From contig JALSLV010000118.1 in assembly GCA_026988115.1 (NCBI GenBank), positions 1 through 64,000 of the forward strand: a stretch of DNA of 64,000 nucleotides, given 5' to 3'. The position numbers and the translations under genes are program-made. The notes under the pieces were generated by a model, which saw only the letters and a program-made list of their open reading frames with translations, was not told the origin of the DNA and made no database searches. The DNA comes from Lysobacterales bacterium (lineage in GTDB: Bacteria; Pseudomonadota; Gammaproteobacteria; Xanthomonadales; Marinicellaceae). Positions 32,098-48,634 of this stretch are shown one piece after another. Within the stretch, counting starts at the first letter, position 1, and the number at the start of each line of letters is the position of its first letter.

Positions 32098-32790
32098 TTA
32101 ATCTTTTCGATTATCTTTAAAGGTTCTCCAGCCACTAATCATTGTGCTAATTAGTGTTTGTCTTGACATAATGTCCTCGCGAAAAGCGACATAAACATGC
32201 ATCATAACAAAGATGAGTATTACCCACATGCCCAAATGATGAAAGGTATGAACGTCTTGTGATTGCCCGAACAGTGGAATTATCCAAGAACTAAACCATG
32301 AATATTGCCAACTGTCAAAGCCAGCACCTTCACCATACAACGCTAATCCAGTGAAAATCATAAAGAATGTTCCCCATACTAACATAACATGCATGAAGAT
32401 AATTGCCATAGGATTATGACCGACATATTTTTTAGGTTCTTTGGCAATAAACAGGTACCATTTCATTTCGTGCCAAACTTCAGACCAAAACTTGCCACTG
32501 AATATTGGCGGTAAAAAGATTTGTTTAGCATGGGAGTTACCAACAAAAGCCCAATATATTCTGCCAATGAAGCCAATAACGAATACATAACCTGCAGCAA
32601 AATGAGCAAAGCGTATATAGCCCATGAGGAAATGTTCGTAGGCTTCGCCTGATAAGCTCGACAATGGAGAGCCAATTAAATAACCTGTGATAGCAAGTAC
32701 AGTAATTGCTAATGCATTAATCCAGTGCCATAATCGAATTGGAACTTCATACACATAGACCGATTGTTCGTTTTTTGTCTTAGTAGACAT
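32098..32790 (-). CDS. hupC: Ni/Fe-hydrogenase b-type cytochrome subunit
   Basis: A 230-residue di-haem cytochrome b of the inner membrane that takes electrons from the hydrogenase small subunit and passes them to quinone. Four hydrophobic helices are visible. Haem-ligand histidines are in RLWHWINALAI near the N-terminus, FAHFAAGYVFVIG in helix 2 and FHHLGMWVILIFVMMHVY in helix 4, as in HyaC/HupC. It is the third gene of hupSLC, 13 bases after hupL, and a terminator follows. Its presence shows that the enzyme is membrane-bound and respiratory rather than soluble. Confidence 0.93.
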   Translation of the reverse strand: MSTKTKNEQSVYVYEVPIRLWHWINALAITVLAITGYLIGSPLSSLSGEAYEHFLMGYIRFAHFAAGYVFVIGFIGRIYWAFVGNSHAKQIFLPPIFSGKFWSEVWHEMKWYLFIAKEPKKYVGHNPMAIIFMHVMLVWGTFFMIFTGLALYGEGAGFDSWQYSWFSSWIIPLFGQSQDVHTFHHLGMWVILIFVMMHVYVAFREDIMSRQTLISTMISGWRTFKDNRKD

Positions 32791-32803
32791 AACTACACCT
32801 CCA

Positions 32804-34609
32804 TTATGATCCTATTGGGCCAGTTGTGACTTTGACCAATTCTTTACCTTCTTCTGACATAACATGTGTTGAACACGCTAAACATGGATCAAAGCTGTGA
32901 ATGTTGCGCAGGATTTCAACGGGTTCTTCAGGAACTTCAACCTTGGTATTCATCATGGATGCTTCAAATGCACCAATATTACCTGCCTCATCACGTGGCG
33001 AGCCATTCCATGTGGTTGGCACGACACATTGATAGTTCTCAATTTTTTGGTCTTTAATCTTAATCCAGTGACCTAGAGCTCCACGAGGTGCTTCAGAAAA
33101 ACCAACGCCTTTAGCCTCAGCCGGCCAGTCGTTTGGATCCCACATCTCTCCACCATGGGTTGTTGAATCACCGTTTTTAATGTTTTTCATGAGTTTTTCA
33201 AAGAAATACAATTGTTGGTCAGCGGCCCACTGTGCTTCTAGGGCGCGTGCAGCTGTTCTTCCCAAGGTGGAAAACAATGCCTCAAGAGGGACATCTAATG
33301 TTTTAAGAGTGTAATTAATTTGCTCGGTAAAATATTCATGCCCTTGTGCATAACCTACAATGTATCGAGCCAAAGGCCCAACTTCCATCGCGTGGCCTTT
33401 CCAGCGCGGTGCTTTAATCCATGAATATTTAGCAGCTTCATCAAGTTCTTCAATATTGTGTTTTGTGCCTTTTGCGGAACTGACATCAAAGTTAGGATCG
33501 GTAATACCTTCCCAAGGGTGAAGGCCTTTGACACCATTTGGATATTTATACCAAGAATGTGGTACAAATTCTTGAATTTCATTAGGGTCGCGTAAATTTA
33601 TAGGGTGGACTTCACTAAGCTTACCGTTAATGATTGCTCCCTGTGGCATCATCAAGTTGCCTGCAGAATAATCATTGGCTCTATCAGGAATATCGCCATA
33701 AGCCAAAACATTTGAACCAGATATTCCACCACCGTACAGCCAGCCTTTATAAAATTGTCCAATAGCTAAAATATCTGGGATATAGACATTATCTACAAAT
33801 GTTTTGGTGTCTTTAATGATTTGGTGAACTTGATTTAAGCTCGCCATGTTTAATGCACCAACTGCTCCGGTATCATCCATGTTAATAGGACAAGGAACAC
33901 CACCAACAGTCCAGTTCGGATGAGTGTCTTTACCGCCGAAAATAGTACGGGTCTTCATGATTTCTTTTTGGAAGTCTAAAGCCTCTAAATAATGTGTAAC
34001 TGCCATCAAATCGGCTTCTGGTGGAAGCAAGTAAGCAGGATTGGTCCAATATCCATTTTTAAACGGTCCAAGTTGTCCCGATGCGATAAATTTCTTTAAA
34101 CGATTTTGCACATCGCGAAAATAACCAGGCGATGATTTTGGGTGGTGAGGAGAGACTTGTTGTTGCAAAGCAGAGGTTGCTTTTGGATCGGCTTTTAAAG
34201 CATTCACTGGATTAACCCAGTCTAGCGCATGCAAGTGATAAAAATGCACCAAGTGATCATGAATTTGTAAAGACAACTGCATTATGTTACGTATACTATT
34301 GGCATTTTCTGGAATATTAATCCCCAAGGCATCTTCAACCGAACGAACGGATGTTAAAGCATGTGTACCTGTGCAAACGCCACAAATACGCTGTACAAAT
34401 GCCCACGCATCACGTGGGTCGCGGCCTTTAAGTATAACCTCTAATCCTCGCCAAATTGTTCCAGAAGAAACGGCATTGGTAATAATATTGTCAGAATTAA
34501 TATTGACTTCGGCTCGCATGTGCCCTTCAATGCGGGTAACTGGATCAACAACGTGTCGTGTTCCTGATGAATCGAGTGTGTAACCGTTTGGTGTTTGGAT
34601 AATGCTCAT
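32804..34609 (-). CDS. hupL: [NiFe]-hydrogenase large subunit, uptake type
   Basis: The 601-residue catalytic subunit holds the NiFe(CN)2CO centre. The two nickel-binding motifs are present: [11 protein letters not shown] near 89-99 and [10 protein letters not shown] near the C-terminus. After the final His come about 16-20 residues ending in TTGPIGS, the maturation tail cut by Hup[13 protein letters not shown] near residue 26 is also conserved. One base overlaps the hupS stop (TAATG). The mature protein is exported together with the Tat-bearing small subunit. Length and motifs match group 1 membrane-bound uptake enzymes; the small subunit indicates the oxygen-tolerant subgroup. Confidence 0.97.
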
Positions 34610-35694
34610 TATGCTTGGTCTCCTTTGTTTTGTGATCGTTTTAGGGCGGATATGGCAGCGTGTGCAGCAATTGCACCACCGACAACTGTGGCGGCACCTA
34701 TGCCAACTTTATCGGCATTTTCTTCAACACCAAATTGATTAATGCCTGATAAGCGGTTATAAAAACCACCTTTGTCCCAAAAACCATCTTCTGAACAGCC
34801 AATGCAAGGGTGACCTGCTTGAATTGGAAATGATAACCCTCCATTCCAGCGAATAGTTGAACAAGCGTTATAAGTAGTTGGTCCTTTGCAACCCATCTTG
34901 TACAAGCAATACCCCTTTCTTGCTCCTTCATCATCCCATTTTTCAACAAACTGACCTGCGTCAAAATGACCACGACGGTAGCATTTGTCATGAATGCGTT
35001 GTGAATAAAACATTTTAGGGCGACCTTGGCGATCCAAAGAAGGTAAGCGTTCAAAGGTGAGCATATACGTAATTACCGCAGTCATAACCTCAGCAATAGG
35101 TGGACAACCAGGAACTTTAATAATAGGTGCATTGCCCAAATCGGGCACTTTATGTATCGGTGTCGCTCCCGTTGGATTGGGTGAAGCAGCTTGCACACAA
35201 CCCCAAGAAGCACAAGAGCCCCAGGATATTATGGCTTTAGCATGTTTGGCAGCATAACGTAACTGTTCAGTGTAGGGTTTGCCTGCAATAATACAAGACA
35301 TACCACCGGTATTTTCTTGTTCTAACCCAGGGTTGCCTTCACAGGCAAGAATAAAGTTACCATCGTATTTCTCAATGGTTTCTTCAATAATTGCCTCAGC
35401 TTGGTGCCCTGCTGCTGCCATAATTGTGTCATCATAATCCAGAGAAATCATAGATAAAATAACGTCTTTAGCCAGAGGGTGGGCAGAACGAATAAAAGAT
35501 TCAGAACAACATGTGCACTCAAGTCCGTGCAGCCAAAGCACAGGTATTCGCGGTTTGTTTTCCATCGCATCAGCAATTTTTGCTGCATAAGCTGGACTTA
35601 AACCCATTGCTGCTGCAGTTAGACTACAAAATTTTAAAAAACTTCGACGGGTAATCCCCTGTCTCCGCATGACATCATAAAAAGTCTCTGTCAT
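34609..35694 (-). CDS. hupS: [NiFe]-hydrogenase small subunit with six-cysteine proximal cluster
   Basis: The 361-residue iron-sulfur subunit carries electrons from the active site to HupC. A Tat signal with RRSFLK is at 16-21. The proximal-cluster region has Cys at 60, 62 and 63 (ECTCCSES), 161 and 166 (GSCASWGC) and 197 (GCPPI): six cysteines, including the two extra ones that give a [4Fe-3S] cluster in oxygen-tolerant enzymes such as E. coli Hyd-1. The distal and medial clusters are in [11 protein letters not shown] and the later [10 protein letters not shown] / HPCIGC region. A C-terminal membrane helix follows. GAGGAG seven bases before the ATG at 35694 decides this start over an upstream one at 35793. 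Confidence 0.96.
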
Positions 35695-35851
35695 TATTCT
35701 ACTCCTCAATTTAGTATAGTTAATATTTTCTTGTTGGGATCCTGATGCATCAAAATCGAATTCCACCCAGTTCATTGGTGAATACGTTAACATTTTTTTT
35801 TAAAAACAACATGGGATATTTTTTAGTTTAAATTTACAAGGAGAAAACCGA

Positions 35852-35871
35852 GGTTTGTAACACCACAAACC
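35852..35871. promoter_or_regulatory. Perfect dyad GGTTTGT-N6-ACAAACC, candidate operator
   Basis: Seven-base arms at 35852-35858 and 35865-35871 are perfectly inverted around six bases. The dyad sits about 160 bases upstream of hupS and downstream of its proposed promoter, a position suited to a regulator site. HupR of Rhodobacter capsulatus is reported to bind a TTG-N5-CAA site; here the half-sites are TTG and CAA but the spacer is eight. Confidence 0.45.
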
Positions 35872-35888
35872 ATTTGTTTTGAATAGCT

Positions 35889-35916
35889 AGTATGCTTTTA
35901 TAAATTAAATTGACAA
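35889..35916 (-). promoter_or_regulatory. Candidate sigma-70-type promoter for hupSLC
   Basis: On the minus strand, TTGTCA (35916-35911) and CATACT (35894-35889) are separated by 16 bases. The matches are five of six to the -35 and four of six to the -10 consensus. The -35 hexamer is one arm of the dyad at 35911-35927. The resulting leader would be about 190 bases. It is a prediction from consensus only. Confidence 0.35.
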
Positions 35917-35927
35917 CTTGGTTGACA
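35911..35927. promoter_or_regulatory. Dyad TGACAAC-TTG-GTTGACA overlapping both divergent -35 regions
   Basis: Seven-base arms with one mismatch surround TTG. The right arm contains TTGACA on the plus strand, and the left arm reads TTGTCA on the minus strand, so a protein bound here would touch both divergent promoters. It lies 57 bases before the hupD ATG. It is a candidate operator for the HupR-like regulator. Confidence 0.45.
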
Positions 35928-35983
35928 TTTTAATGGTGGGGGGGGTAAGCTTAAAATTCAATTTTCACTCAATGAAATACACA

Positions 35984-36676
35984 ATGAAACAAACACTCAT
36001 TCTCGGCATAGGAAATATTTTATGGGCAGACGAAGGCTTTGGTGTTCGAGCTGTTGAAAAACTCAATCAATATTATCAGTTTGATGACAACGTCAAGGTA
36101 ATGGATGGTGGCACTCAAGGCATTTACTTGGTTCAATTTGTTGAAGAGGCAGAAATATTGGTGGTTTTTGATGCCATTGATTATGGTTTGGAGCCTGGTG
36201 AAATGAAGCTTATTGAAGGCGAGGATGTACCTAAATTTATGGGTGTAAAAAAAATGAGTTTACACCAAACAGGCTTTCAAGAGGTATTAATGATGGCAGA
36301 AATGCTCGGCAGATACCCTGAACATTTACTATTGGTTGGAGTTCAACCTGTTGAATTAGAAGATTTTGGTGGAAGCTTGAGAGAAAAAACCCGACAACAG
36401 ATTGACCCTGCAATTGAAGCCGCTTTAGACTGGTTAAAACAATTTGACATTCACGCAACAAAAAGAGTCAAGCCATTATCTAAAGAACACGCTTTAGCTG
36501 GAAAAGAAATGGATATCAAGACCTACGAAGAACAAAGACCATCGGCAGAAGCCGCTAGTAGGGTTGGCGACAACCGTGTATTGCACTCAAAAGAGTTTCA
36601 TATCCAATACAAGCCACACAAATTAGATGAGGAAAAGGTCATTGCTTGTGACGTTGATCATCGAGGCAAGTATTAA
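35984..36676 (+). CDS. hupD: Hydrogenase maturation endopeptidase
   Basis: A 230-residue protease that removes the C-terminal tail of HupL after nickel insertion. The family residues that sense bound nickel are present: Glu in GIGNILWADEGFGV, Asp in VVFDAIDYG and His in SLHQTGFQEVL. The ATG at 35984 gives the canonical MKQTLILGIGN start; the frame is open to 35918, but that extension starts in the promoter region. Compared with the usual 195-210 residues it has a C-terminal extension of roughly 50 mostly charged residues (from about KRVKPLSKEHA) of unknown purpose. One base overlaps hupF. Confidence 0.93.
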   Translation: MKQTLILGIGNILWADEGFGVRAVEKLNQYYQFDDNVKVMDGGTQGIYLVQFVEEAEILVVFDAIDYGLEPGEMKLIEGEDVPKFMGVKKMSLHQTGFQEVLMMAEMLGRYPEHLLLVGVQPVELEDFGGSLREKTRQQIDPAIEAALDWLKQFDIHATKRVKPLSKEHALAGKEMDIKTYEEQRPSAEAASRVGDNRVLHSKEFHIQYKPHKLDEEKVIACDVDHRGKY

Positions 36677-37038
36677 TGTGTATCGGTTTGCCAATGCAAA
36701 TAAAAGAAACGGGTTTTGGTTATGCCAAATGTGAAGGCATGGGAATCAAACGTGATGTTGATACCTTGCTGGTTGGTGATTTGCCCATTGGTACATGGGT
36801 TTTGGTTTTTCTCAACAGTGCCAGAGAAGTATTAACCCCAGAAAATGCCGATAAAATAACCAAAGCAGTCACTGCGGTCAATATGGTAATGGAGAATGAT
36901 GGGCAGATTTCACAAAACGGCATGGACAACAATGCCATCGATGCTTTATTTGCCGACCTAATTGACCGTGAACCGCAAAAACCAGCCTCACTTATTGCTT
37001 TTGAAGAAAGCCAAAAAAAACTATCGGAGAAAAACTAA
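36676..37038 (+). CDS. hupF: HypC/HupF family hydrogenase chaperone
   Basis: A 120-residue chaperone beginning MCIGLPMQI, with the essential N-terminal Cys2 that contacts the large-subunit precursor and HypD. HupF members are paralogues of HypC with a C-terminal extension, seen here as about 45 extra residues after the OB-like barrel. It is believed to protect the large subunit under oxygen, which fits the oxygen-tolerant enzyme. It overlaps hupD by one base and is followed immediately by hupG. A second, shorter paralogue, hypC, lies further down the operon. Confidence 0.92.
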   Translation: MCIGLPMQIKETGFGYAKCEGMGIKRDVDTLLVGDLPIGTWVLVFLNSAREVLTPENADKITKAVTAVNMVMENDGQISQNGMDNNAIDALFADLIDREPQKPASLIAFEESQKKLSEKN

Positions 37039-37452
37039 ATGCCATCAGTCCTTATTAAGAACATGATTGAGAAGTACAATTATCCAGTTTTGGATGAAGA
37101 AAATATAGATGAATTTATTAAATCACAAGACGAATGTGTCCTGTTTTTTGCCAGCGATCCAACGCGTTACCCTGAGAGTGATGATGTTGCCATGATTTTA
37201 CCTGAACTGGTTAAGGAATACGGCAACCGTTTCAGTGCTGCATTTGTCGAACAAAAGTCGGAACGCAGTTTACAAAGACGATTTGGGTTTGCCCGTTGGC
37301 CAACCCTGGTTTTCTTAAAAAAAGGACAAAAACTGGGACACATCAGCAAGGTACAAGATTGGAACGACTATATTCTTAAAATAAATGAGTTGTTAACTTC
37401 AGAACCAAAACCTGTATTTGATATTCCATTAACCCTAAAACCAAACAACTAA
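37039..37452 (+). CDS. hupG: Hydrogenase expression protein HupG/HyaE (thioredoxin-like)
   Basis: A 137-residue thioredoxin-fold protein of the HyaE/HupG family that assists the small subunit, probably as a chaperone acting on the Tat precursor. The fold is recognisable from CVLFFASDP, FSAAFVEQKSERSLQRRFGFARWPTLVFLKKGQ with the cis-proline-type WP, and GHISKVQDWNDYI. The redox CxxC of true thioredoxins is absent, as in the family. It starts directly after the hupF stop and precedes hupH by 19 bases. Confidence 0.88.
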   Translation: MPSVLIKNMIEKYNYPVLDEENIDEFIKSQDECVLFFASDPTRYPESDDVAMILPELVKEYGNRFSAAFVEQKSERSLQRRFGFARWPTLVFLKKGQKLGHISKVQDWNDYILKINELLTSEPKPVFDIPLTLKPNN

Positions 37453-37471
37453 GCTCCAGGAGCCATAAAAT

Positions 37472-38341
37472 ATGAAAAAATGTGATATACCATTGAAAGT
37501 CGTCGGCCCTGGTTCGCAACCAGCCGATAGCGATGGTGCTGAAATTTCCTTTATGAATTTACCAGCAGGCATGACAACCTTTGAAGCACCTATTGTGCCC
37601 GAGCCAGAAGAAGTTGTAGGCATGGAGCAAGCATTGGCCTTGGCTCATGAAATACAAAGTTGTTTAACCCAATACAAAGTTGGTAAAAAGGCGGTCATTT
37701 TTGATTTGAATAAATTAGATGACAAAAACAGCTTGTTTATGGATCAATTGCTAGGCGATGGCGAGGTCAGTATCCAATACAATGGCGAAGTCCAAATCGA
37801 AATTCAAGAATCGGTACTGGCAGGATTATGGCGTGTGCGTTACCTTGATGCCAACCAAAACATTGTACAAGACACCATGGAAGTAGCAGATATTCCTAGT
37901 GTGGTTACCGAATTAACATTCAAAAATGCACAAGAAAATTTTGATATGTCTCGCATTGAAATTCCAGAGTCAATTTATAATGCACCACCCTTGTTGGTTG
38001 AAGTTAGTGATAAGCTTCCGGAATTAAAAAAAGGCGATGAGCCGCATATTATCAATTTATCCTTATTACCACATACTGATGATGATATATCCTTTATGTC
38101 TCATGTGTTGGGCATTGGTCCAACGATAATTCTTTCACGCGGTTATGGTAATTGTCGAATTAGCAGTACGGCGACTAAAAATGCTTGGTGGGTGCAATTT
38201 TTTAATTCACAAGATACCCTGATATTAAATACTTTAGAACTAGTTGATATACCCAGTGTCGCAAAAGCCTCCAAGGAAGACCTTGAAGACAGTGCTGAAC
38301 GCTTGCAAGAAATTTTAAGCATCTATCATGAAGAGGTTTAG
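37472..38341 (+). CDS. hupH: Hydrogenase expression/formation protein HupH/HyaF
   Basis: A 289-residue protein of the HupH/HyaF family, needed for maturation of the small subunit iron-sulfur clusters in several bacteria. Two similar halves are visible (EISFMNLPAGMTTFEAP and later LSLLPHTDDDISFMSHVLGIGPTIILSRGYGNCRI), with the family-typical VWWVQFFNSQDTLILNTLELVDIP stretch near the C-terminus. AGGAGCC about 12 bases before the ATG is the ribosome-binding site. The rubredoxin gene follows after two bases. The detailed biochemical mechanism of the family is not settled. Confidence 0.9.
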   Translation: MKKCDIPLKVVGPGSQPADSDGAEISFMNLPAGMTTFEAPIVPEPEEVVGMEQALALAHEIQSCLTQYKVGKKAVIFDLNKLDDKNSLFMDQLLGDGEVSIQYNGEVQIEIQESVLAGLWRVRYLDANQNIVQDTMEVADIPSVVTELTFKNAQENFDMSRIEIPESIYNAPPLLVEVSDKLPELKKGDEPHIINLSLLPHTDDDISFMSHVLGIGPTIILSRGYGNCRISSTATKNAWWVQFFNSQDTLILNTLELVDIPSVAKASKEDLEDSAERLQEILSIYHEEV

Positions 38342-38343
38342 TA

Positions 38344-38565
38344 ATGGATGATGCAATATTACCGGGCTCTTTTGGTGGTGACAAAAGCAAGCTAAAAGAT
38401 GACTCAAAACTTGAGTGCAAAATCTGCTGGCACGTTTACAATCCTGATGAAGGTGATGATTATTGGCAAATAGCCCCAGGCACACCCTTTTCCGAATTGC
38501 CTGAAGATTGGTCTTGCCCAGAATGTGACGGCAATAAAAATGACTTTATGTTAATTGATAAATGA
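38344..38565 (+). CDS. hupI: Rubredoxin-type protein HupI
   Basis: A 73-residue rubredoxin. The iron ligands are in CKICWHVYNP and CPECDGNK (two CxxC motifs), with FSELPEDWSCPEC typical of the family. HupI-type rubredoxins occur in uptake-hydrogenase operons and support maturation of the small subunit under oxygen. A 20-residue N-terminal extension precedes the first Cys. It is tightly packed between hupH and hupJ, with a four-base overlap at the 3' end (ATGA). Confidence 0.95.
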   Translation: MDDAILPGSFGGDKSKLKDDSKLECKICWHVYNPDEGDDYWQIAPGTPFSELPEDWSCPECDGNKNDFMLIDK

Positions 38566-39275
38566 TGAAAACCCAACAATCACAAGAACCGCAAGAAATT
38601 GAAACTATTGTCATAACTGAGGATGAAATAAAAGACAAAAAGAATTTAATTGAATCTGTTTTCACTAGAATTTATCAAGAAAACATGAAAGATGTGCCAG
38701 TAATTAACGAAAAATTAGAGGTAAGCGTCATAGGCTTGCAGCAATGGCAAGAACTCTATCTTGGTGTGCTTATAACGCCTTGGTTTATGAATATTATCCT
38801 ACTACCCTATGAAACTGATACGTGGAATGATTTGTCAGAACTGAGCAAGGAAACCCATATCTTTCCCTCAGGACGTTATTCTTTTATAATCGGTCGAGAT
38901 AAAGAATTGGGCACTTATCAAATGTGTTCGTTATTTTCACCGATGTTTGAATTTGCAGACAATGAGGCGGCATTGGACACTGCCACGGTAGTCATTAAAG
39001 AATTGATGAACGTCGAAAATATCGAACAAACCGATATAGATTCGGAACAAATAGAACGCATTTGGAAAGGTGAAGAAGAGCACCCTGGTTATGGTGATGA
39101 AGGTGATGAAATACCTGAAGATGAATCAAAAGGCGATTGTGAAGATGGAAAATCTCAAGATAAAACAGAGCCAACACCGATTAAAGACCTAAAAGAAAAC
39201 ATACAAACGCCCATGAGCAGACGTGATATGTTGCGTGGTGCTTTTTTAAGAAAAAGTGATAACAAGAATGATTGA
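38562..39275 (+). CDS. hupJ: [NiFe]-hydrogenase assembly chaperone HupJ/HybE-like
   Basis: A 237-residue protein with a HybE-like domain (about 25-150, including LYLGVLITPWFMNIILLP and GRYSFIIGRDKELGTYQMCSLFSPM). HybE-like chaperones hold the small or large subunit before Tat export. Beyond the domain come an acidic low-complexity region (about 160-200) and a basic end with SRRDMLRGAFLRK, which resembles a Tat-like twin Arg; a similar tail is seen in HupJ relatives. Two ATGs occur (38562 and 38565). It overlaps hupI by four bases and hupK by eight. Confidence 0.85.
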   Translation: MMKTQQSQEPQEIETIVITEDEIKDKKNLIESVFTRIYQENMKDVPVINEKLEVSVIGLQQWQELYLGVLITPWFMNIILLPYETDTWNDLSELSKETHIFPSGRYSFIIGRDKELGTYQMCSLFSPMFEFADNEAALDTATVVIKELMNVENIEQTDIDSEQIERIWKGEEEHPGYGDEGDEIPEDESKGDCEDGKSQDKTEPTPIKDLKENIQTPMSRRDMLRGAFLRKSDNKND

Positions 39276-40395
39276 AGGACAGCTCATCATTGATGTTAAA
39301 AGAAGCTCAAGTGATACAACCGTCACTATAACTTCAAGTCGGCCCTTGCACGCTTCACAAATATTGGTGGGTAAAAGTCCAGAACAAGCCTTAAAAATCG
39401 TGCCTTTATTGTTTAATATTTGCGGTATTGCTCAATCCTATAATGCCTTTAGGGTCTTAATCCACCAGAAAAATTACAAAAATAGTGCTCAACAAATTTT
39501 GGTATTAACTGAAACATTAAAAGAGCACTTGTTGCGAATATTCTTAGATGCACCTCAATTGCTCAACATTAAAGCAAGTGATGTTAATTTATCTTTTGTT
39601 GCTCAATTGGTCAAGCAAATGCAGACGAGCATATTAGGTGGTCAACCCATATTTGACTTTGAAAATAATGCAACAATTCAGCAAGCTGAAACACAGGCTT
39701 TGATTGAAGAAATTGAAACCTTTCTTGAAAAACACTTATTTGGAATGCCAATAAATCAATGGCAACAAATTAACACATACCTCGCTTTAATTGAGTGGTC
39801 AACAAAGCAGCAAAGTATTGCCACAAAGGCAATAAATACAATTATTAAAAATGATTGGTCTTCACAAGCGGCTATTTCTTTGCAGCCTTTGCCTGTTTTA
39901 CCTGTAAAAGAATTGGAATTTGAGTTGGGCAATGGCAATGCTAAAAACTTTATTGCTCAACCACGGTGGCAACAAAAAACCTACGAGACCACACCATTAA
40001 CACGACATCGTAATAATAGTTTAATCATAGATTTACAAGAAAAGCATGGGAATGGCTTGTTAACCCGTTGGCTTGCACGCCTCGTTGAAGTTTCATTACT
40101 GCCTTTGCAAATACGGACTTTACTGGCAAATAAATCTGCAACAACTGAATCATCACAAATAGCACAAATAGAAGCCGCACGCGGACGTTTAATTCACCGT
40201 GCTGTCGTTGAGAACAACAAAGTAAAAACTTATCAAATTGTGGCTCCAACCGAGTGGAACTTTCACCCAAATGGCGTTGTGGTGGAATCATTGAAAAATA
40301 TAAAAACAAAGACCAATTCAGAATACCAAAAAATAGCCCATTGCGTCATTAATGCCATTGACCCATGTGTGGGCTATGAGTTGAGGGTCAGTTAA
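39268..40395 (+). CDS. hupK: Hydrogenase expression protein HupK
   Basis: A 375-residue maturation factor related to the hydrogenase large subunit, proposed to act as a scaffold for iron-ligand assembly. Two traces of the large-subunit motifs are visible: ICGIAQSYNAF near 55-65 in place of the first CxxC, and IDPCVGYELRV near the C-terminus in place of DPCxxC, with the second Cys missing. ATG at 39268 is chosen; a GTG four codons earlier (39256) is also open. It overlaps hupJ and runs directly into hypA (one-base overlap). Confidence 0.85.
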   Translation: MIEGQLIIDVKRSSSDTTVTITSSRPLHASQILVGKSPEQALKIVPLLFNICGIAQSYNAFRVLIHQKNYKNSAQQILVLTETLKEHLLRIFLDAPQLLNIKASDVNLSFVAQLVKQMQTSILGGQPIFDFENNATIQQAETQALIEEIETFLEKHLFGMPINQWQQINTYLALIEWSTKQQSIATKAINTIIKNDWSSQAAISLQPLPVLPVKELEFELGNGNAKNFIAQPRWQQKTYETTPLTRHRNNSLIIDLQEKHGNGLLTRWLARLVEVSLLPLQIRTLLANKSATTESSQIAQIEAARGRLIHRAVVENNKVKTYQIVAPTEWNFHPNGVVVESLKNIKTKTNSEYQKIAHCVINAIDPCVGYELRVS

Positions 40396-40736
40396 TGCAC
40401 GAGATGTCATTGTGCGAAGGCATACTGCAAGTGCTTGAAACAGAAGCAAGCACTCAAAAATTTAAAAAAGTAAAAACCGTCTGGTTAGAAATAGGCGAGT
40501 TATCAAGTGTTGAGATTGAGGCGTTGAAATTTAGTTTTGATGTGGTTATGAAAAACAGCATTGCAAAGGATGCAAAACTTGAAATAATCAGAGTAGCGGG
40601 TTCGGCATGGTGTATGCAATGCAGTGAACCAGTCAAGATAAAAAAGCGATTTGATGAATGCCCACAATGTGGCAGTTCACAATTGCAAGTTACAGGTGGA
40701 ACAGAAATGAAAATTAAAGAACTAGAGGTAGAATAA
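40395..40736 (+). CDS. hypA: Hydrogenase nickel incorporation protein HypA
   Basis: A 113-residue metallochaperone that delivers nickel to HupL with HypB. The nickel-binding N-terminus MHEMSL with His2 is intact. The zinc site is formed by [20 protein letters not shown] (two CxxC). Family length and order are normal. It overlaps hupK by one base and hypB by one base, so the maturation genes form one tight transcript. Confidence 0.95.
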
Positions 40737-41590
40737 TGTGTACAGTATGCGGATGCAGTGAAGGCGAAAGTAGGGTAGAAGGTGTAGCGGTCCATGACCA
40801 TAAGCACGAACATGACCACAAGCATGAACACAGTCATGCACATGAGCATAATGGTGATGATCATCATTACGGACATGGTCCTGCTCACGCCCATGCGCCA
40901 GGCATGAGCCAATCAAGAATGGTGCAAATTGAACAAGATATTTTAGGAAAGAATAACGAATATGCACAAAACAATAAAAGCATGTTAGCAGCCAAAGGAA
41001 TTTTGTCTTTAAATCTAGTTTCATCTCCAGGGTCTGGAAAAACAACTTTATTAACTCGAACATTAACCGATTTAAAAGATGATTTGCCGATGGTGGTAAT
41101 TGAGGGCGATCAAGAAACTTCTAACGATGCTGATAAAATACGGGCTACAGGTGCCAAAGCAATTCAAATTAATACAGGCAAAGGATGCCACTTGGATGCA
41201 CACCAAGTTGGTCATGCGATTGAACATTTAGACCCAGATGATACTTCGGTATTATTTATTGAAAATGTTGGCAACCTTGTCTGTCCCGCGGCATTTGATT
41301 TAGGCGAAGCACACAAAGTGGCAATATTGTCCGTTACAGAGGGCGAAGATAAACCGATTAAATATCCTGATATGTTTTATGCCGCAGATTTATTGTTATT
41401 AAATAAAATTGATTTATTGCCATATTTGGATTTTGATATTCAAAAGTGTATAGCGTATGCCAAAAAGGTCAACCCAAGTATTCAAATCTTAAAAGTTTCG
41501 GCAACAACAGGCGAAGGCATGGATGATTGGTACCAATGGATAAAACTATCTCGTCAAAGCAAGCTAATTGGTTTTAAAAAACAGGCATAA
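40736..41590 (+). CDS. hypB: Hydrogenase nickel incorporation GTPase HypB
   Basis: A 284-residue SIMIBI GTPase that loads nickel. The N-terminus begins [12 protein letters not shown], with the CxxCGC high-affinity nickel site, and continues with a His-rich stretch (about residues 20-60, 20 or so His) that can store nickel. The GTPase motifs follow: G1 [10 protein letters not shown] near 99, [25 protein letters not shown] and NKID near the C-terminal part. The antisense strand also has long open frames here, explained by the His-codon repeats. It precedes the hupR-like gene by 12 bases. Confidence 0.96.
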
Positions 41591-41602: not shown

Positions 41603-43096
41603 ATGAAAAAGACACTGCCAAGTATTTTGATTGTGATGGATGATAAAGATGCTATTGCGGCATTTGAAGCGATTCTATCTAAACAATTTGAAGTCTTTAG
41701 TGCTTTAGATGTTGAAAACGCACATGAGATTTTACAACAACAATGGATACAAGTTTTACTCAGCGCACAACGAATGCCAGAGGTCAGAGGGCTGGATTTT
41801 TGCCAACAAGTGCGCGCACAACATCCAGATGTTATACGCATCATGATAACAGATTATGCTGCCAGTGATATTGTAACCAATGCCATAAAAAACAAAGATA
41901 TATTTCAATACATCTGCAAGCCATGGCATAAAAATGAAATCATAGGCAAATTAAACAATGCCATTGAGTTTTTTGAGTTACAGCGAAAAAATGAACAGTT
42001 AAAAATAGAATTACAACTCAAGCCCGATAATATTGAACAAACCATGTTGGCAAAACGGCAAATATTACAAACACGCCTGGATTGGGACATGGGAATAATT
42101 CGCAGTCCAGAAAGTCCAGTAAATCGAATTTGTAATTTAATTCGTAATATTGCCGCCTTTGATGTGCATGTCTTACTCATTGGTGAGTCAGGCACCGACA
42201 AAGGTTCTTATGCCCGTGCTATTCATGATAATTCTTTGCGACAAAAGGAGCCATTTGTGACCCAAAATTGTGCTGGCTTAGATGATGAAATGCTAGAGCG
42301 ACAATTATTTGGTTATAAAAACGGTGCGTTTATTGGTGCAAAAAAAGACAAGGCTGGCTTGTTGGCAAAAGCCAATGGTGGCACAATTTATTTGAATGAA
42401 ATTGATGAAACCTCCACTGCTTTTCAGTTAAAGTTATTACAAGTTTTGCTTGATGGAGAGGTTTATCAAATAGGCTCAAGTCGCCCAACCAAAATAAATA
42501 TTCGAGTAGTAGCAGCAACCGACCATGACTTGGATGAAAAATTGGGCAATGGAACATTTAGGCGTGATTTGTTTTATCGCATAGCAACCTTTGATATTCA
42601 TATCCCGCCACTAAGAAAACGTCAGCAGGATATCGTGCCAATTGCTATTACTTTATTAAATCAAAATATGGAACTGTTAGGAAAAAAAGTTAATGGTATC
42701 GGCGATGAAGCCCTAAAGATTTTTGAACAATATGAATGGCCTGGCAATATTGTCGAAATGAACAATGAAGTGAAACGAATGCTGGTTTTGGGTCAAGAAG
42801 ATTATTTGGGTTCCGACTTAATTTCGCGGCATATTTTACACGCAACTCCGCAAGAATCTAAAAATGACATGGATTATGTCGTTAATGCCGAAGGTACGCT
42901 AAAACAACGCTTGGAGTCACTGGAAGCTGTAGTGGTCAAAGAAACCTTAATTAAATGCCGCTGGAATCAAACCAAAGCAGCCCAAGAGCTGGGCTTGTCA
43001 CGGGTTGGTTTGCGCAATAAAATTGAGCGTTATGGTTTAGAAAAAAATACCAAAATCATAGATATGCAAGAAGCCACTAAAGAGCAAAAACTATGA
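41603..43096 (+). CDS. hupR: HupR/HoxA-like NtrC-family regulator with degenerate receiver and AAA+ motifs
   Basis: A 497-residue protein with receiver (5-120), AAA+ (165-400) and Fis-type HTH (445-485, WNQTKAAQELGLSRVGLRNKI) domains, in the position of hupR in other hydrogenase loci. Many key residues are altered: the phospho-acceptor Asp is Ala55 (LLSAQRMP); Walker A reads GESGTDK (Asp199 for Gly); the sigma-54 contact loop is GAFIGA (Ile244 for Thr); Walker B reads IYLNEI (Asn265 for Asp). Receiver Thr83 and Lys106 and the RRDLFYR arginine region are kept. It should bind DNA but is unlikely to be phosphorylated or to drive sigma-54 in the normal way. No partner kinase lies in the window. 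It overlaps hypF by four bases. Confidence 0.92.
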   Translation: MKKTLPSILIVMDDKDAIAAFEAILSKQFEVFSALDVENAHEILQQQWIQVLLSAQRMPEVRGLDFCQQVRAQHPDVIRIMITDYAASDIVTNAIKNKDIFQYICKPWHKNEIIGKLNNAIEFFELQRKNEQLKIELQLKPDNIEQTMLAKRQILQTRLDWDMGIIRSPESPVNRICNLIRNIAAFDVHVLLIGESGTDKGSYARAIHDNSLRQKEPFVTQNCAGLDDEMLERQLFGYKNGAFIGAKKDKAGLLAKANGGTIYLNEIDETSTAFQLKLLQVLLDGEVYQIGSSRPTKINIRVVAATDHDLDEKLGNGTFRRDLFYRIATFDIHIPPLRKRQQDIVPIAITLLNQNMELLGKKVNGIGDEALKIFEQYEWPGNIVEMNNEVKRMLVLGQEDYLGSDLISRHILHATPQESKNDMDYVVNAEGTLKQRLESLEAVVVKETLIKCRWNQTKAAQELGLSRVGLRNKIERYGLEKNTKIIDMQEATKEQKL

Positions 43097-45432
43097 CAAC
43101 AGGTAGGCAAACAGGACAAAGAATACGTGTCAAAGGCTTGGTGCAAGGTGTTGGTTTTCGCCCTACAGTTTGGATAATTGCTAACAAACAAAAACTCAAA
43201 GGAGCTGTCTTGAATGACGGGCAAGGGGTTTTGATTGAATTGTTTGGTAAGGACAATGAAATCGCAACCTTTATTCAATCACTCAAAGATCAATGTCCGC
43301 CATTGGCACGAATTGATAGCATTGAATCCGAAGGTTTTCACTCAAAACCACCAAATGATTTTACCATTGTTGCCAGCCATGCCACGGCTGCACAAACGGG
43401 TATTGTGCCAGATGCCGCGACTTGTGAAGTGTGTGCAAAAGAAACCTTTGATAAAAACAATCGTCGTTATCGCTATCCTTTTACCAATTGCACGCATTGT
43501 GGCCCTAGATTAACCATCATAAAAGCCATCCCTTATGACCGCAAGAATACTTCAATGGCTCCTTTCATCTTATGTGACAAATGCCAAAGTGAATACGACT
43601 ATCCTGCCGATAGAAGATTTCACGCCCAACCCAATGCTTGTCCAAAATGCGGTCCAGAAATTTGGTTAGAGCCTGCTATTGAACAAACAAATACAATAAA
43701 AGCGACCGTTGAACTACTAAAACAAGGCAAAATCATTGCCATCAAAGGCATCGGTGGTTTTCATTTGGCGTGCGATGCCAGCAATCAACAAGCCGTAAAA
43801 GCATTAAGGCAAAGAAAAAAACGCAACGCCAAGCCATTTGCATTGATGGCACGAGATATAACAGTCATCGAAAAATACGCAGATATTAATAAACAAGAAA
43901 AACAACTGCTGCAATCATCGATTGCCCCGATTGTTTTGTTGAGTAAAAGTAAAAATGATTTACCAAATGAGCTTGCACCTAGACAAAACACCTTGGGATT
44001 TATGTTGCCTTATACGCCATTGCATCATTTGCTTTTGCAAAAAATGGACTTTCCTTTAGTTATGACCTCGGGCAATTCTAGCGATATTCCGCAATGTATA
44101 GACAATGAAGATGCTAAACAATCACTAAAAGATATAGCTGATTATTGGTTGTTAAACAATCGTGATATTGTCAATCGAGTAGATGATTCCGTAGTCAGAG
44201 TGGTGGGTGATAATACTCAAGTTCTACGACGAGCACGGGGCTATGCACCCACTTCGATGGCATTACCCAAAGGATTTGAGCAAAGCACAGATGTTTTGGC
44301 ATGTGGTGGCGAGTTAAAAAATACATTTTGCTTGGTCAAAGATGGTTTAGCCATATTATCGCAACATATCGGCGACTTAAAAAATGCCGACACATACAAT
44401 GATTATGAAAAAACCTTAAAACTTTTTCAAAATCTATACCAACACCAGCCCAATATAATTGCCATTGACGCACACCCTGATTATTTATCCAGTAAATACG
44501 GAAAATCTTTAGCCTTAAAAAACAATCTTTTGTTATCTACAGTTCAGCATCATCACGCTCATGTTGCTTCGTGTTTAGCAGAAAATAACTGGGCACTCAA
44601 TCAAGGTAAAGTCTTGGGTGTGGCACTCGATGGCATAGGTTATGGTGATGATGATAGCATTTGGGGTGGTGAATTTTTGCTAGCGGATTATAGTCAATGC
44701 AAACGTGTTGGACGACTTAAACCGATGGCACTTTTGGGTGGATCTCAAGCGATGCAACAACCGTGGAGAAACACCTATGCACAACTAAGTTCACATTTTG
44801 ATTGGAAAACAATATCTAAAAAATACGGGCACTTAGCCATTATTCAATATTTACAACAAAACCCAGTGGCAACCTTAGATGCCATGTTAGAAAAAAACAT
44901 CAATTCGCCCATGGCATCCTCAGCTGGCAGGTTATTTGATGCGGTTGCAGCCGCAGTTGGAATTTGTGTTGAACAAGTACAGTACGAAGGACAGGCGGCT
45001 ATCGAGCTTGAAGCACTGGTGACAGAATCATTAATTGAGCAACAAAAAAACCATGCCTATACTTTAGAAATTCAAAAAGAAGACAATGGTTTAATGCAAC
45101 TAAATACCTTTGCACTGTGGCAAGCACTACTCAAAGATTTAGACAAAGACCTTACACCTGCCGTAATTGCCACACGCTTTCATTTGGGTTTAGCCACTAG
45201 CATCGTTGCCATGATTGAGGCAATTTTAAAAACCCAAAAATTAGAGACCATTGCCCTAAGCGGCGGTGTTTTTCAAAATAAAATATTATTACAACAAGCG
45301 GTTGCACAGTTAGAAAGTAAAAAATACAAGGTGTTAATTCACCAACAAATTCCTGCCAACGATGGTGGTATTGCATTAGGGCAAGCCATGATTGCATTGG
45401 CACAACAATTGGAGAAACAAGCATGTGTTTAG
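43093..45432 (+). CDS. hypF: Carbamoyltransferase HypF
   Basis: HypF makes the thiocarbamate on HypE from carbamoyl phosphate and ATP, the source of the cyanide ligands of the NiFe centre. The 779 residues show an acylphosphatase domain (GLVQGVGFRPTVW near 15-27), two C4 zinc fingers (CEVC...CTHC and CDKC...CPKC), a YrdC-like domain (KGIGGFHLACDA), and a Kae1-like C-terminal domain (HHHAHVASC, VALDGIGYGDD, LSGGVFQNKILL). All domains are in the usual order and length. It overlaps hupR and hypC. Confidence 0.96.
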   Translation: MTTGRQTGQRIRVKGLVQGVGFRPTVWIIANKQKLKGAVLNDGQGVLIELFGKDNEIATFIQSLKDQCPPLARIDSIESEGFHSKPPNDFTIVASHATAAQTGIVPDAATCEVCAKETFDKNNRRYRYPFTNCTHCGPRLTIIKAIPYDRKNTSMAPFILCDKCQSEYDYPADRRFHAQPNACPKCGPEIWLEPAIEQTNTIKATVELLKQGKIIAIKGIGGFHLACDASNQQAVKALRQRKKRNAKPFALMARDITVIEKYADINKQEKQLLQSSIAPIVLLSKSKNDLPNELAPRQNTLGFMLPYTPLHHLLLQKMDFPLVMTSGNSSDIPQCIDNEDAKQSLKDIADYWLLNNRDIVNRVDDSVVRVVGDNTQVLRRARGYAPTSMALPKGFEQSTDVLACGGELKNTFCLVKDGLAILSQHIGDLKNADTYNDYEKTLKLFQNLYQHQPNIIAIDAHPDYLSSKYGKSLALKNNLLLSTVQHHHAHVASCLAENNWALNQGKVLGVALDGIGYGDDDSIWGGEFLLADYSQCKRVGRLKPMALLGGSQAMQQPWRNTYAQLSSHFDWKTISKKYGHLAIIQYLQQNPVATLDAMLEKNINSPMASSAGRLFDAVAAAVGICVEQVQYEGQAAIELEALVTESLIEQQKNHAYTLEIQKEDNGLMQLNTFALWQALLKDLDKDLTPAVIATRFHLGLATSIVAMIEAILKTQKLETIALSGGVFQNKILLQQAVAQLESKKYKVLIHQQIPANDGGIALGQAMIALAQQLEKQACV

Positions 45433-45713
45433 GCATTCCTGGACAAATTATTGAAATCATTGACGAAAAGTTGATGCAAGCAAAAGTCGATGTGGCAGGC
45501 ATAAAACGCCCAGTTAATATTGAATGCATTGTCGATGAACAACATCCACCACAAAAATGTATCGGTGATTGGGTGTTGGTGCATGTGGGTTTTGCCATGA
45601 GCCGAATTGATGCAGATGAAGCACAAAGAACTTTGGATTTATTGCAAGAACTAGAAGAGTACCAAGAAGAAGTCGAAGCAATCAAATCCAGCCAAAAAGA
45701 ATTGGAGACTTGA
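45423..45713 (+). CDS. hypC: Hydrogenase assembly chaperone HypC
   Basis: A 96-residue chaperone beginning MCLGIPGQII, with the essential Cys2. HypC shuttles the Fe(CN)2CO moiety between HypD and the large-subunit precursor. It is shorter than the HupF paralogue upstream, and the C-terminus is a charged helix (LLQELEEYQEEVEAI). Ten bases overlap hypF. The SIS-domain gene begins two bases after it. Confidence 0.94.
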   Translation: MCLGIPGQIIEIIDEKLMQAKVDVAGIKRPVNIECIVDEQHPPQKCIGDWVLVHVGFAMSRIDADEAQRTLDLLQELEEYQEEVEAIKSSQKELET

Positions 45714-45714
45714 T

Positions 45715-46422
45715 ATGTCAAATGACTCAAATGACAATAGGGAACACTTAAAATCTTTGTATCCTTTTTTACATGGCGATAAGAAAAACACAGTCACTGA
45801 AAACTCTGCGTTACTGGATTCTATCAAACAAAAAGCACAACATTCCATTGATGAAAAACAACGCTTTTTTGATAAAAATTCTCAAGCTTTGATAGAAGCT
45901 GCCAAGGCCATTGCACAGGTTTACCAGAACCAAGGGCGTTTATTTACTATGGGCAATGGCGGTTCAAGTTGTGATGCGGCACATTTGGCTGTTGAGTTTC
46001 AACATCCTGTGACCACTGGTCGTCCTGCGTTACCAGCAATGAACTTGTGCATTGATACCGCCATGATTTCAGCCATTAGCAATGACTTAGGCGTTAAGCA
46101 TGTTTTTGTACGACAAATTAATGCCCATGCTCGCCAAGGCGATTGTTTGGTGGGATTTTCTACCAGTGGTAATTCAGAAAATTTAATGCAAGGCTTTAAA
46201 AAAGCCAAAGACTTAGGATTAATAACCATAGGCTTTGCAGGAGACAAAGGCGGAGCAATGTTAAATAGTGGCTTGTTAGATCATTGTTTGGTGGTTGAAA
46301 CCGACTCGATACACCGCGTCCAAGAGGTGCATGTGGCTTGTTATCATATCTTATGGGATTTGGTGCATACATTATTAGCGGATAATCGTGGTTTACTTGG
46401 CAAAAATATGGAGCAAACATGA
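45715..46422 (+). CDS. SIS-domain protein, GmhA-like, embedded in the hyp operon
   Basis: A 235-residue sugar-isomerase-fold protein similar to sedoheptulose-7-phosphate isomerase GmhA. The phosphosugar-binding segments are LFTMGNGGSSCDAAHLAVEF near 78-97 and LVGFSTSGNSENLMQGF near 140-156, and GmhA-like residues for zinc (Glu/His in EVHVACYHILWD near 210) are present. A charged N-terminal extension of about 30 residues precedes the fold. It is locked between hypC and hypD, with a four-base overlap into hypD, so it is co-expressed with the maturation genes. Such an insertion is known from a few other hyp operons. Whether it makes a sugar or has a separate maturation role is not known. Confidence 0.8.
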   Translation: MSNDSNDNREHLKSLYPFLHGDKKNTVTENSALLDSIKQKAQHSIDEKQRFFDKNSQALIEAAKAIAQVYQNQGRLFTMGNGGSSCDAAHLAVEFQHPVTTGRPALPAMNLCIDTAMISAISNDLGVKHVFVRQINAHARQGDCLVGFSTSGNSENLMQGFKKAKDLGLITIGFAGDKGGAMLNSGLLDHCLVVETDSIHRVQEVHVACYHILWDLVHTLLADNRGLLGKNMEQT

Positions 46423-47591
46423 AATACGTCGATGAATTTAGAGACCCTGCCAAAGCCAAGGCATTAATCAGTCAAATAAATGGTTTAAAAGAAAAACTAG
46501 GCATAAAAGATGGTGCAATGCCGATACAATTGATGGAATTTTGTGGAGGTCACACGCACACCATTTTCCGTTATGGCATCGAACCAATGTTGCCTGATTG
46601 GGTGGAAATGATTCATGGACCAGGTTGTCCAGTTTGTGTCTTACCCATGGGTCGAGTGGATAACTGTGTGGAACTTGCCGAACGTCCAGAAGTGATATTT
46701 ACCACCTTTGGCGATGCCATGCGAGTGCCTGGTTCTAAAAAAAGTTTGTTGCAAGCCAAGGCCGATGGTGCTGATGTGCGCATGACTTATTCACCCATGG
46801 ATGCCTTAGAACTGGCAAAAAGAAATCCGATGCGTGAAGTGATATTTTTTGGGCTAGGTTTTGAAACCACCATGCCGAGTACCGCATTGACAGTGATACA
46901 AGCAAAAAACCAAGGCATCAAAAATTTTTCATTGTTTTGTAATCACATAACTACGGTTCCAACCATAAAAGCCGTGCTTGATTCACCCGATATGCGCATT
47001 GACGGATTTTTAGCACCCGGTCATGTCAGCATGGTGGTTGGAGAGCGTCCTTTTGATTTTATTGCCGATGTGTATCATAAACCGATAGTTATAACAGGCT
47101 TTGAGCCATTAGATATTTTACAGTCAATTTGGATGGTGTTATCGCAACTGGCAGAAAAACGTTGCACGGTAGAAAACCAATACGCCCGTATTGTACCACC
47201 AAACGGCAACCCTGCAGCACTCAATGCCATGGCAAAAGTTTTTGAATTACGTGAATTTTTTGAGTGGCGTGGATTAGGTTCAATTGATCATTCAGGTGTT
47301 AAAATGCGTGAAGAATACCAAGACTTTGATGCTGAAGTAAAATTTGCCGTACCCTTATTAAAAATTGCCGACCCAAAGTCTTGCCAATGTGGCGAAGTAG
47401 TTAAAGGCGTATTGCGTCCGTGGGAATGTAAAATATTTGGTGGTGCGTGTACTCCAGAAACGCCAATGGGGGCACTAATGGTGTCATCCGAAGGGGCTTG
47501 TGCAGCTTATTACAGCTTTGGCGATATTCCACAATTGCTTGCCAAGCGAGAACAACAAATTAAAATAAATATTAAGGATAAGTCAGCATGA
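46419..47591 (+). CDS. hypD: Hydrogenase formation protein HypD
   Basis: A 390-residue [4Fe-4S] protein at the centre of Fe(CN)2CO assembly. The conserved cysteine motifs are visible: EFCGGHTH near 42-49, GPGCPVCVLP near 68-77, and the four-Cys cluster near the C-terminus around CQCGEVVKGVLRPWECKIFGGACTPE. The GFETTMPSTALT segment is also characteristic. The start overlaps the SIS gene, and the end overlaps hypE by four bases. Confidence 0.96.
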   Translation: MKYVDEFRDPAKAKALISQINGLKEKLGIKDGAMPIQLMEFCGGHTHTIFRYGIEPMLPDWVEMIHGPGCPVCVLPMGRVDNCVELAERPEVIFTTFGDAMRVPGSKKSLLQAKADGADVRMTYSPMDALELAKRNPMREVIFFGLGFETTMPSTALTVIQAKNQGIKNFSLFCNHITTVPTIKAVLDSPDMRIDGFLAPGHVSMVVGERPFDFIADVYHKPIVITGFEPLDILQSIWMVLSQLAEKRCTVENQYARIVPPNGNPAALNAMAKVFELREFFEWRGLGSIDHSGVKMREEYQDFDAEVKFAVPLLKIADPKSCQCGEVVKGVLRPWECKIFGGACTPETPMGALMVSSEGACAAYYSFGDIPQLLAKREQQIKINIKDKSA

Positions 47592-48634
47592 GCCGTATCA
47601 AAAGAAAACTAAACGCTGAAATAATTACCTTAGCTCATGGCAGTGGCGGCAAAGCCATGCGAGATTTAATTGATGATGTTTTTGTTAGTGGTTTTGACAA
47701 TTCGCATTTGGATGAACTCGAAGACCAAGCAAAATTTAACCTCAGCGACCTTGCAAAACATGGTAACAGGCTGGCAATGACCACCGATTCTTATGTAGTT
47801 GACCCATTATTCTTTCCTGGAGGAGATATTGGTAAATTAGCCATTACTGGTACGGTTAATGATTTAGCCGTAGGCGGAGCAAAGCCTTTGTACTTGACTT
47901 GCAGCATGATAATTGAAGAAGGTTTTAAGGTTGAAACGCTGCGTAAAATTGTAAAATCCATGAAAAAAACCGCCGATGATGCCGGTGTTAAAATTGTCAC
48001 AGGCGATACCAAAGTGGTCAATAAGGGCGAGTGCGACAAGTTATTTATTAACACCACAGGCATTGGTGTTATTGCAGAAAATATAAATATTGCTGCCAGT
48101 CGTGCTCAAGTGGGTGATGTGGTTATAATCAATGGTTTTGTTGGCGATCATGGTGCGGCTATTGTTGATGCTCGTGGTGAAATGTCGCTAGAAAATACCA
48201 TCAAATCGGATTGCCAAGTACTCAATAGTTTAATTCAAAAGATGTTAGAAGTTTGTCCTGCTATACATTGCATGAGAGATGCCACTCGTGGAGGACTTGC
48301 TACCGTGTTAAACGAATTTGCCCAAAGCAGTCAAGTCAATATCACCATTAATGAAACACAAATTCCAATACGCCCAGAAGTACGCGGTATGTGTGAAATA
48401 CTCGGGCTTGACCCTTTGTATTTAGCCAATGAAGGCAAGCTGATTGCTGTTGTTCCAGCAGATAGTGCAAATAAAGTTTTGCAAGTTATGCAAAAACACC
48501 CTGCCGGCATAGACAGTGCTATTATTGGTAAGGTTGAAAAACAGCCCGCATCACGAGTCATTCTCGCTACCAGCTTTGGTGGCAACCGTATAGTTGATAT
48601 GTTAGTAGGCGAACAATTACCGAGGATATGTTGA
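47588..48634 (+). CDS. hypE: Hydrogenase maturation protein HypE (carbamoyl dehydratase)
   Basis: A 348-residue PurM-like ATPase that dehydrates the thiocarbamate on its C-terminal Cys to thiocyanate. The C-terminus is PRIC, with the invariant Cys last. N-terminal LAHGSGGKAMRDLI and the ATP-binding segment TTDSYVVDPLFFPGGDIGKLA are intact. It overlaps hypD by four bases and is four bases before the nickel permease gene. Normal length, no odd features. Confidence 0.96.
   Translation: MSRIKRKLNAEIITLAHGSGGKAMRDLIDDVFVSGFDNSHLDELEDQAKFNLSDLAKHGNRLAMTTDSYVVDPLFFPGGDIGKLAITGTVNDLAVGGAKPLYLTCSMIIEEGFKVETLRKIVKSMKKTADDAGVKIVTGDTKVVNKGECDKLFINTTGIGVIAENINIAASRAQVGDVVIINGFVGDHGAAIVDARGEMSLENTIKSDCQVLNSLIQKMLEVCPAIHCMRDATRGGLATVLNEFAQSSQVNITINETQIPIRPEVRGMCEILGLDPLYLANEGKLIAVVPADSANKVLQVMQKHPAGIDSAIIGKVEKQPASRVILATSFGGNRIVDMLVGEQLPRIC

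Follow-up and report, generated by a model that had tools for sequence, protein, structure and literature searches.

The 64,000-nucleotide stretch of DNA analyzed here (the window) carries a hup/hyp gene cluster, which includes hupR, the gene for an altered regulator of the NtrC family:

32098..35793, minus strand: hupC, hupL and hupS, the structural genes of an uptake [NiFe] hydrogenase and the presumed target operon
35694..35990, no strand assigned: divergent hupS/hupD control region, with no sigma-54 (-24/-12) match on either strand
35918..41590, plus strand: hupD, hupF, hupG, hupH, hupJ, hupK, hypA and hypB, upstream of hupR
41603..43096, plus strand: hupR, intact, encoding a degenerate HupR/HoxA-type NtrC-family regulator (497 aa; 57% identity to its nearest named relative, L028)
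43093..48634, plus strand: hypF, hypC, a SIS-domain gene, hypD and hypE, downstream of hupR

The initial annotation described hupR as an intact gene coupled to hypF, and the DNA bears this out: the open reading frame has no internal stop and overlaps hypF by 4 bases (ATGA). Within the genus, hupR is confined to the three members that possess the hydrogenase, and the copies in the other two (genomes G003 and G004) are likewise intact. The R. capsulatus gene presumably occupies a similar hypAB-hupR neighborhood.

HupR has the receiver, AAA+ and Fis-type helix-turn-helix (HTH) domains of its class, its nearest homologues are HupR proteins, and its gene lies within a hup/hyp cluster. Pfam models place the receiver at residues 8-117, Sigma54_activat at 172-333, the lid at 338-421 and the Fis HTH at 437-477. 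The three-domain fold is intact in an AlphaFold2 model (mean pLDDT, 81), with NtrC1, NtrX, LuxO, FleQ and VpsR as structural matches. The changes within this framework are distributed as follows, all on the plus strand:

41624..41953: receiver domain (residues 8-117), with the phospho-acceptor gone (A55) and one member of the acidic pair replaced (M12, beside an unchanged D13) (Pfam, alignment)
41636..41638: codon 12 (ATG), D12M, an acidic residue of the receiver lost (alignment)
41765..41767: codon 55 (GCA), phospho-acceptor change D55A (alignment)
42116..42601: AAA+ (Sigma54_activat) core, residues 172-333, which keeps its fold but has lost catalytic residues (Pfam, alignment, AlphaFold2)
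42197..42205: Walker A, GESGTDKG, with G199D, K200 kept and E201G (alignment)
42323..42340: L1 loop, GAFIGA, with T244I (V in G003 and G004) (alignment)
42395..42406: Walker B, with D265N, E266 kept and G268D (alignment)
42521..42523: sensor I, N307D (alignment)
42752..42754: sensor II, R384V (PGNVRE to PGNIVE) (alignment)
42911..43033: Fis-type HTH (residues 437-477), conserved, with residues 440-480 80% identical to L028 (Pfam, per-domain comparison)

The four altered sites singled out in the initial annotation are real, being encoded in the DNA (A55 by GCA, D199 by GAC, I244 by ATT and N265 by AAT) and common to G003 and G004. Further losses at conserved functional positions (D12M, E201G, N307D and R384V) accompany them, as does G268D beside Walker B. 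Its statement that structural residues are kept holds for Lys106 and the Fis HTH and is half right for the arginine region, because the protein has the trans Arg fingers R320 and R326 but not the sensor II arginine, R384. Walker A Lys200 and Walker B Glu266 are also retained, and position 83 is Thr, which is mostly Ser among relatives.

Searches across 84,980 species genomes and at the level of the order recovered 31 HupR/HoxA relatives with 37 to 57% identity to the window protein. When the four columns are aligned, D55, G199, T244 and D265 are unchanged in all 31, in which both Walker motifs are intact and the loop reads GAFTGA (GAYTGA in one and GGFTGA in another); R384 is present in every relative in which that region is covered. 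The copies from G004 and G003, which are 98% and 96% identical to the window HupR, share its changes, with Val at residue 244. In the tree, the genus copies group together as a clade of three whose sister is L028 (100/100), and the stem branch of the genus amounts to 0.96 changes per column, versus 0.07 for L028. The match from Cupriavidus necator H16, located beside a regulatory hydrogenase gene, is 41% identical to the window HupR.

A class-wide sample of 369 genomes yielded 26 HupR copies, some of which may also be in the named panel, and every one of the 26 has canonical Walker motifs, GAFTGA or GAYTGA, and R384. Loss of the phospho-acceptor is not unique by itself, because three distant copies in this sample (L176, L184 and L186) carry a degenerate receiver that lacks the Asp, their Walker motifs and GAFTGA being intact; residues for ATPase activity and sigma-54 contact were seen to be lost in the genus only. 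The genomes of these three copies contain rpoN, and their HupR-like proteins are possibly constitutive sigma-54 activators.

Despite these changes, hupR evolves under purifying selection. Its dN/dS is 0.08 between the window and G003, 0.08 between the window and G004, and 0.07 between G003 and G004, with a dS of about 0.27 among the genus copies, and the neighboring hypF gives similar values (0.08 to 0.09). (A dN/dS for hypB against G003 was discarded because an alignment offset had inflated it.) The receiver and AAA+ domains, at 0.05 to 0.12, are also under purifying selection, indicating that more than the HTH is being preserved. The window and L028 share 40% identity in the receiver and 57% in the AAA domain, compared with 57% and 77% between L028 and L030, whereas the linker, lid and HTH are 63%, 66% and 80% identical between the window and L028, versus 55%, 52% and 76% between L028 and L030. 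It was from the receiver and AAA core that constraint disappeared along the stem, and the linker, lid and DNA-binding domain evolved normally. Of 19 functional sites, 8 have changed, versus 17 of 76 other invariant columns, a somewhat higher share that is not significant (Fisher P = 0.09), so part of the loss may reflect constraint easing generally across the receiver and AAA core. Changes to invariant columns also fell less often in the HTH and lid (2 of 23) than in the receiver and AAA domains (22 of 71), a contrast that is weak by itself (P = 0.05).

The genus that harbors this regulator has no recognizable sigma-54. Neither of two rpoN domain models (one of them PF04552) found a match in any of its 11 genomes, some of which are 98 to 100% complete; the window's own genome is a draft of 121 contigs with 100% completeness. 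The same two models both match in 4 of 14 control genomes, E. coli among them, and 68 of 101 relatives, drawn from families throughout the order, have a PF04552 match. A Caulobacter genome has an rpoN match in this search, and R. capsulatus possesses sigma-54. Canonical HupR and rpoN occur together in all 14 named relatives tested, and rpoN is present in 23 of 24 class-level genomes with HupR. The exception, G202 (a draft of 93% completeness), encodes a canonical HupR (L182) with GAFTGA and has no rpoN match, owing either to a missing contig or to an early stage after the loss of rpoN. The one rpoN match in the sampled family (G011:C1:951956-952438) is in three pieces with the middle one frame shifted, which could represent a true frameshift, an assembly error or an intermediate in rpoN loss.

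Other members of the NtrC family in the genus have changed as well. Among 28 additional loci examined in the 11 genomes (L002-L004 and L110-L134; TyrR-, PilR- and NtrX-like by sequence reading), the GAFTGA loop is lost outright, which is weaker evidence in the TyrR-like proteins because TyrR-type proteins are sigma-70 dependent elsewhere too. The phospho-acceptor persists in the PilR- and NtrX-like proteins of the genus, which would be sigma-54-independent two-component regulators. The window HupR is a HupR/HoxA orthologue inherited in a lineage without sigma-54, and the absence of sigma-54 from the entire host genus is the main cause of its change.

The upstream signaling cascade is also missing. 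At many canonical loci, hupR is followed by genes for a PAS histidine kinase (HupT) and for HupU and HupV homologues, and a HupV-type large subunit was present in all nine genomes tested, in some of them away from hupR. The window's own genome has only HupL and HupK, with no HupV, and its best match to HupT (29% identity) covers the ATPase part of another kinase. Neither the phospho-acceptor Asp nor the HupT/HoxJ kinase with its HupUV/HoxBC sensor, which otherwise characterize the class, is to be found.

The presumed target promoter differs as well. A -24/-12 element matching 10 or 11 of 11 consensus positions lies upstream of hupS in all seven sigma-54-bearing relatives checked, 73 to 132 nt before the hupS match, and 0 to 18 of 500 shuffles per promoter scored equally well. 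(Three relatives were left out: L028, in which the linked hupS belongs to a more divergent type [46%] and lacks a -24/-12 site, and L159 and L160, which have no hupS match.) No such element precedes hupS in the window, G003 or G004. The hallmarks of a sigma-54-dependent enhancer-binding protein are all missing, namely, GAFTGA, the ATPase sites (G199D, D265N and R384V), sigma-54 in the host and a -24/-12 promoter, and what is left, an NtrC-type architecture without a working GAFTGA, is that of the sigma-70-acting regulators of the family.

The control region offers one weak candidate operator, a 20-bp palindrome GGTTTGTAACACCACAAACC (GGTTTGT-N6-ACAAACC) at 35852-35871, which we do not claim as the operator: one arm is lost in G003, there is a mismatch in G004, and the sequence is also terminator-like. 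No operator conserved across the three genus genomes was found. The motif TTG-N5-CAA, which we take to be the R. capsulatus HupR site, matches 46 times in the window, against 50 expected, and not once in the hupS/hupD control region. A run of eight G residues at 35938-35945, upstream of hupD (seven in G004), is a possible slippage tract within this region.

Ordinary HupR systems operate through HupUV, which senses H2, and HupT, which phosphorylates HupR and thereby turns it off, with the unphosphorylated form activating hupS; in the sigma-54-dependent versions, activation proceeds through an ATP-driven ring whose GAFTGA loop contacts sigma-54. Where it has been studied, unphosphorylated HupR or HoxA activates, and the kinase switches it off (PMC5133592, PMC10073562); a D55A variant of HoxA is always active (PMC10073562); and R. 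capsulatus HupR, with an altered GAFTGA, is sigma-70 dependent (PMC3162934). The residues that serve each lost partner have changed in the window protein, and the HTH, linker, lid and fold are retained by purifying selection. Given its natural D55A and the lack of a kinase, HupR is expected to be locked on, permanently in an "unphosphorylated, active" state equivalent to that of HoxA D55A. Because the sigma-54 loop, the catalytic residues, sigma-54 itself and the -24/-12 promoter have all been lost, a sigma-70-type RNA polymerase would be its only remaining partner.

We infer from these sequence comparisons that HupR is probably a constitutive DNA-binding regulator, independent of phosphorylation and of ATPase activity, that works with sigma-70 RNA polymerase. 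It almost certainly acts without sigma-54 and, we are confident, without phosphorylation at residue 55; useful ATP hydrolysis is very improbable, continued binding to DNA is likely, and activation is somewhat favored over repression as its role. In this view, HupR oligomers would bind DNA with no cycle of ATP hydrolysis and control the hup/hyp operons, most likely by activating a sigma-70-type promoter, such that control would then rest on the expression of HupR itself and on the promoter. The fullest form of this account, for which the balance is about even, is that the fold and DNA-binding domain were kept, the phospho-switch and AAA+ motor became a dead scaffold, activation through sigma-70 became constitutive, and the sensor, kinase, sigma factor and promoter were lost together, amounting to a completed natural conversion of an ATP-driven enhancer-binding protein to a passive activator. 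The initial annotation had likewise proposed a constitutive DNA-binding regulator without phospho-switch and ATPase, which fits the missing sigma-54, HupT, HupUV and -24/-12 hupS promoter, the conserved HTH and the purifying selection. Counting against our reading are the failure to find an operator conserved across the three genomes, the nonsignificant excess of change at functional sites, the retention of Lys200, Glu266 and both trans Arg fingers, and the canonical HupR of G202, a genome without an rpoN match.

HupR might instead bind the hup control region as a repressor or architectural protein, its capacity to activate RNA polymerase having gone with sigma-54; NtrC-type proteins that lack GAFTGA are able to act as repressors at sigma-70 promoters. 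The conserved HTH and the loss of the only known activation surface would suit such a role, and Caulobacter NtrC, which lacks GAFTGA, both activates and represses (PMC10274813). We consider it unlikely: wherever they have been studied, HupR/HoxA proteins activate, and permanent, signal-less repression of its own operon would bring little benefit, yet the gene is strongly constrained. That constraint extends to the receiver and AAA+ domains, as expected if a remodeled AAA+ pocket or receiver bound nucleotide or c-di-GMP, as in VpsR and FleQ, and so set the oligomeric state. Lys200 is kept, VpsR is among the structural matches, and R. capsulatus NtrC requires the binding of ATP but not its hydrolysis (PMC10274813). 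The nearest homologues of the protein, however, are ordinary HupR and not VpsR (21% identity), Asp199 and Val384 would disfavor phosphate binding, and a ligand motif was not found in HupR. The initial annotation had raised ligand sensing as an alternative, but nothing was found that specifically supports it, and it is quite improbable.

The absence of all partners, the loss of conserved residues and the long stem branch could also mark a decaying relic, functionless since sigma-54, HupT and HupUV disappeared. Such decay is very hard to reconcile with a 497-codon frame intact in three genomes, a dN/dS of 0.08 over this dS, the same as for hypF, a linker, lid and HTH that evolved at a normal pace, and the presence of hupR in exactly those genus genomes with the hydrogenase; a pseudogene was rejected on the basis of the intact frames and purifying dN/dS. 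Finally, draft assemblies could contain errors at the altered sites, which the initial annotation had named as what would overturn it, or merely be missing rpoN. The residue changes are not sequencing errors, because two other genus genomes carry them, making three independent assemblies with the same residues, and rpoN is absent from all 11 genomes, the nearly complete ones included; artifact is barely credible as an explanation.

HupR of R. capsulatus, a member of the same family, resembles the window protein in being active when unphosphorylated and sigma-70 dependent with an altered GAFTGA (PMC5133592, PMC3162934). Its receiver (PDB 2jk1, aligned here) keeps the phospho-acceptor Asp, and HupT and HupUV are kept there too, whereas the window's genus lacks the sensor and the kinase as well as the Asp and sigma-54. 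HoxA of C. necator, also of this family and always active as D55A (PMC10073562), uses sigma-54 and an intact ATPase, whereas the window HupR combines a natural D55A with loss of both the ATPase and GAFTGA. The NtrC proteins of R. capsulatus and Caulobacter are NtrC-family regulators that act on sigma-70 promoters without a working GAFTGA (PMC10274813) but differ in that the loop is deleted, the Asp phospho-switch is kept and the hosts keep sigma-54; R. capsulatus NtrC, moreover, needs nucleotide binding. TyrR, DhaR, VpsR and putative enhancer-binding proteins of Jannaschia and Fusobacterium have similarly been released from sigma-54, the latter two in genomes without sigma-54 and with Glu in place of the GAFTGA Thr, and a survey of 842 genomes found such activators without sigma-54 to be rare exceptions (PMC3162934). 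TyrR, DhaR and VpsR are not HupR, and none of these proteins is described in that survey as losing the phospho-acceptor, Walker motifs, kinase and target promoter together.

With HupR and NtrC of R. capsulatus, TyrR and VpsR as precedents, the window HupR is a more extreme form of a known kind. Release of NtrC-family regulators from sigma-54 is known; what is new, within the literature searched, is its extent: a single lineage with close canonical relatives has lost the phospho-switch, the ATPase and the sigma contact along with the sensor, the kinase, the promoter and the sigma factor. No earlier description of such a combined loss was found in the searchable literature, which holds few subscription papers. 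How cells cope with the loss of sigma-54, whose activators are ATP-driven machines, is poorly documented, and the genus provides a clean natural experiment in which input, switch, motor, output surface, sigma factor and promoter are gone but the gene persists with its DNA-binding part. It affords a natural view of an ATP-driven activator turning into an ordinary one, with close sigma-54-bearing relatives available for domain swaps and reverse mutations. Hydrogenase expression in the genus is predicted to be unregulated and independent of H2.

Downstream of hupR, the SIS-domain (GmhA-like) gene at 45715-46422 has hypC on one side and hypD on the other. L036 (Marinobacterium) and L049 (Piscirickettsiaceae) share this hypC-SIS-hypD arrangement, which suggests a link to hydrogenase maturation.
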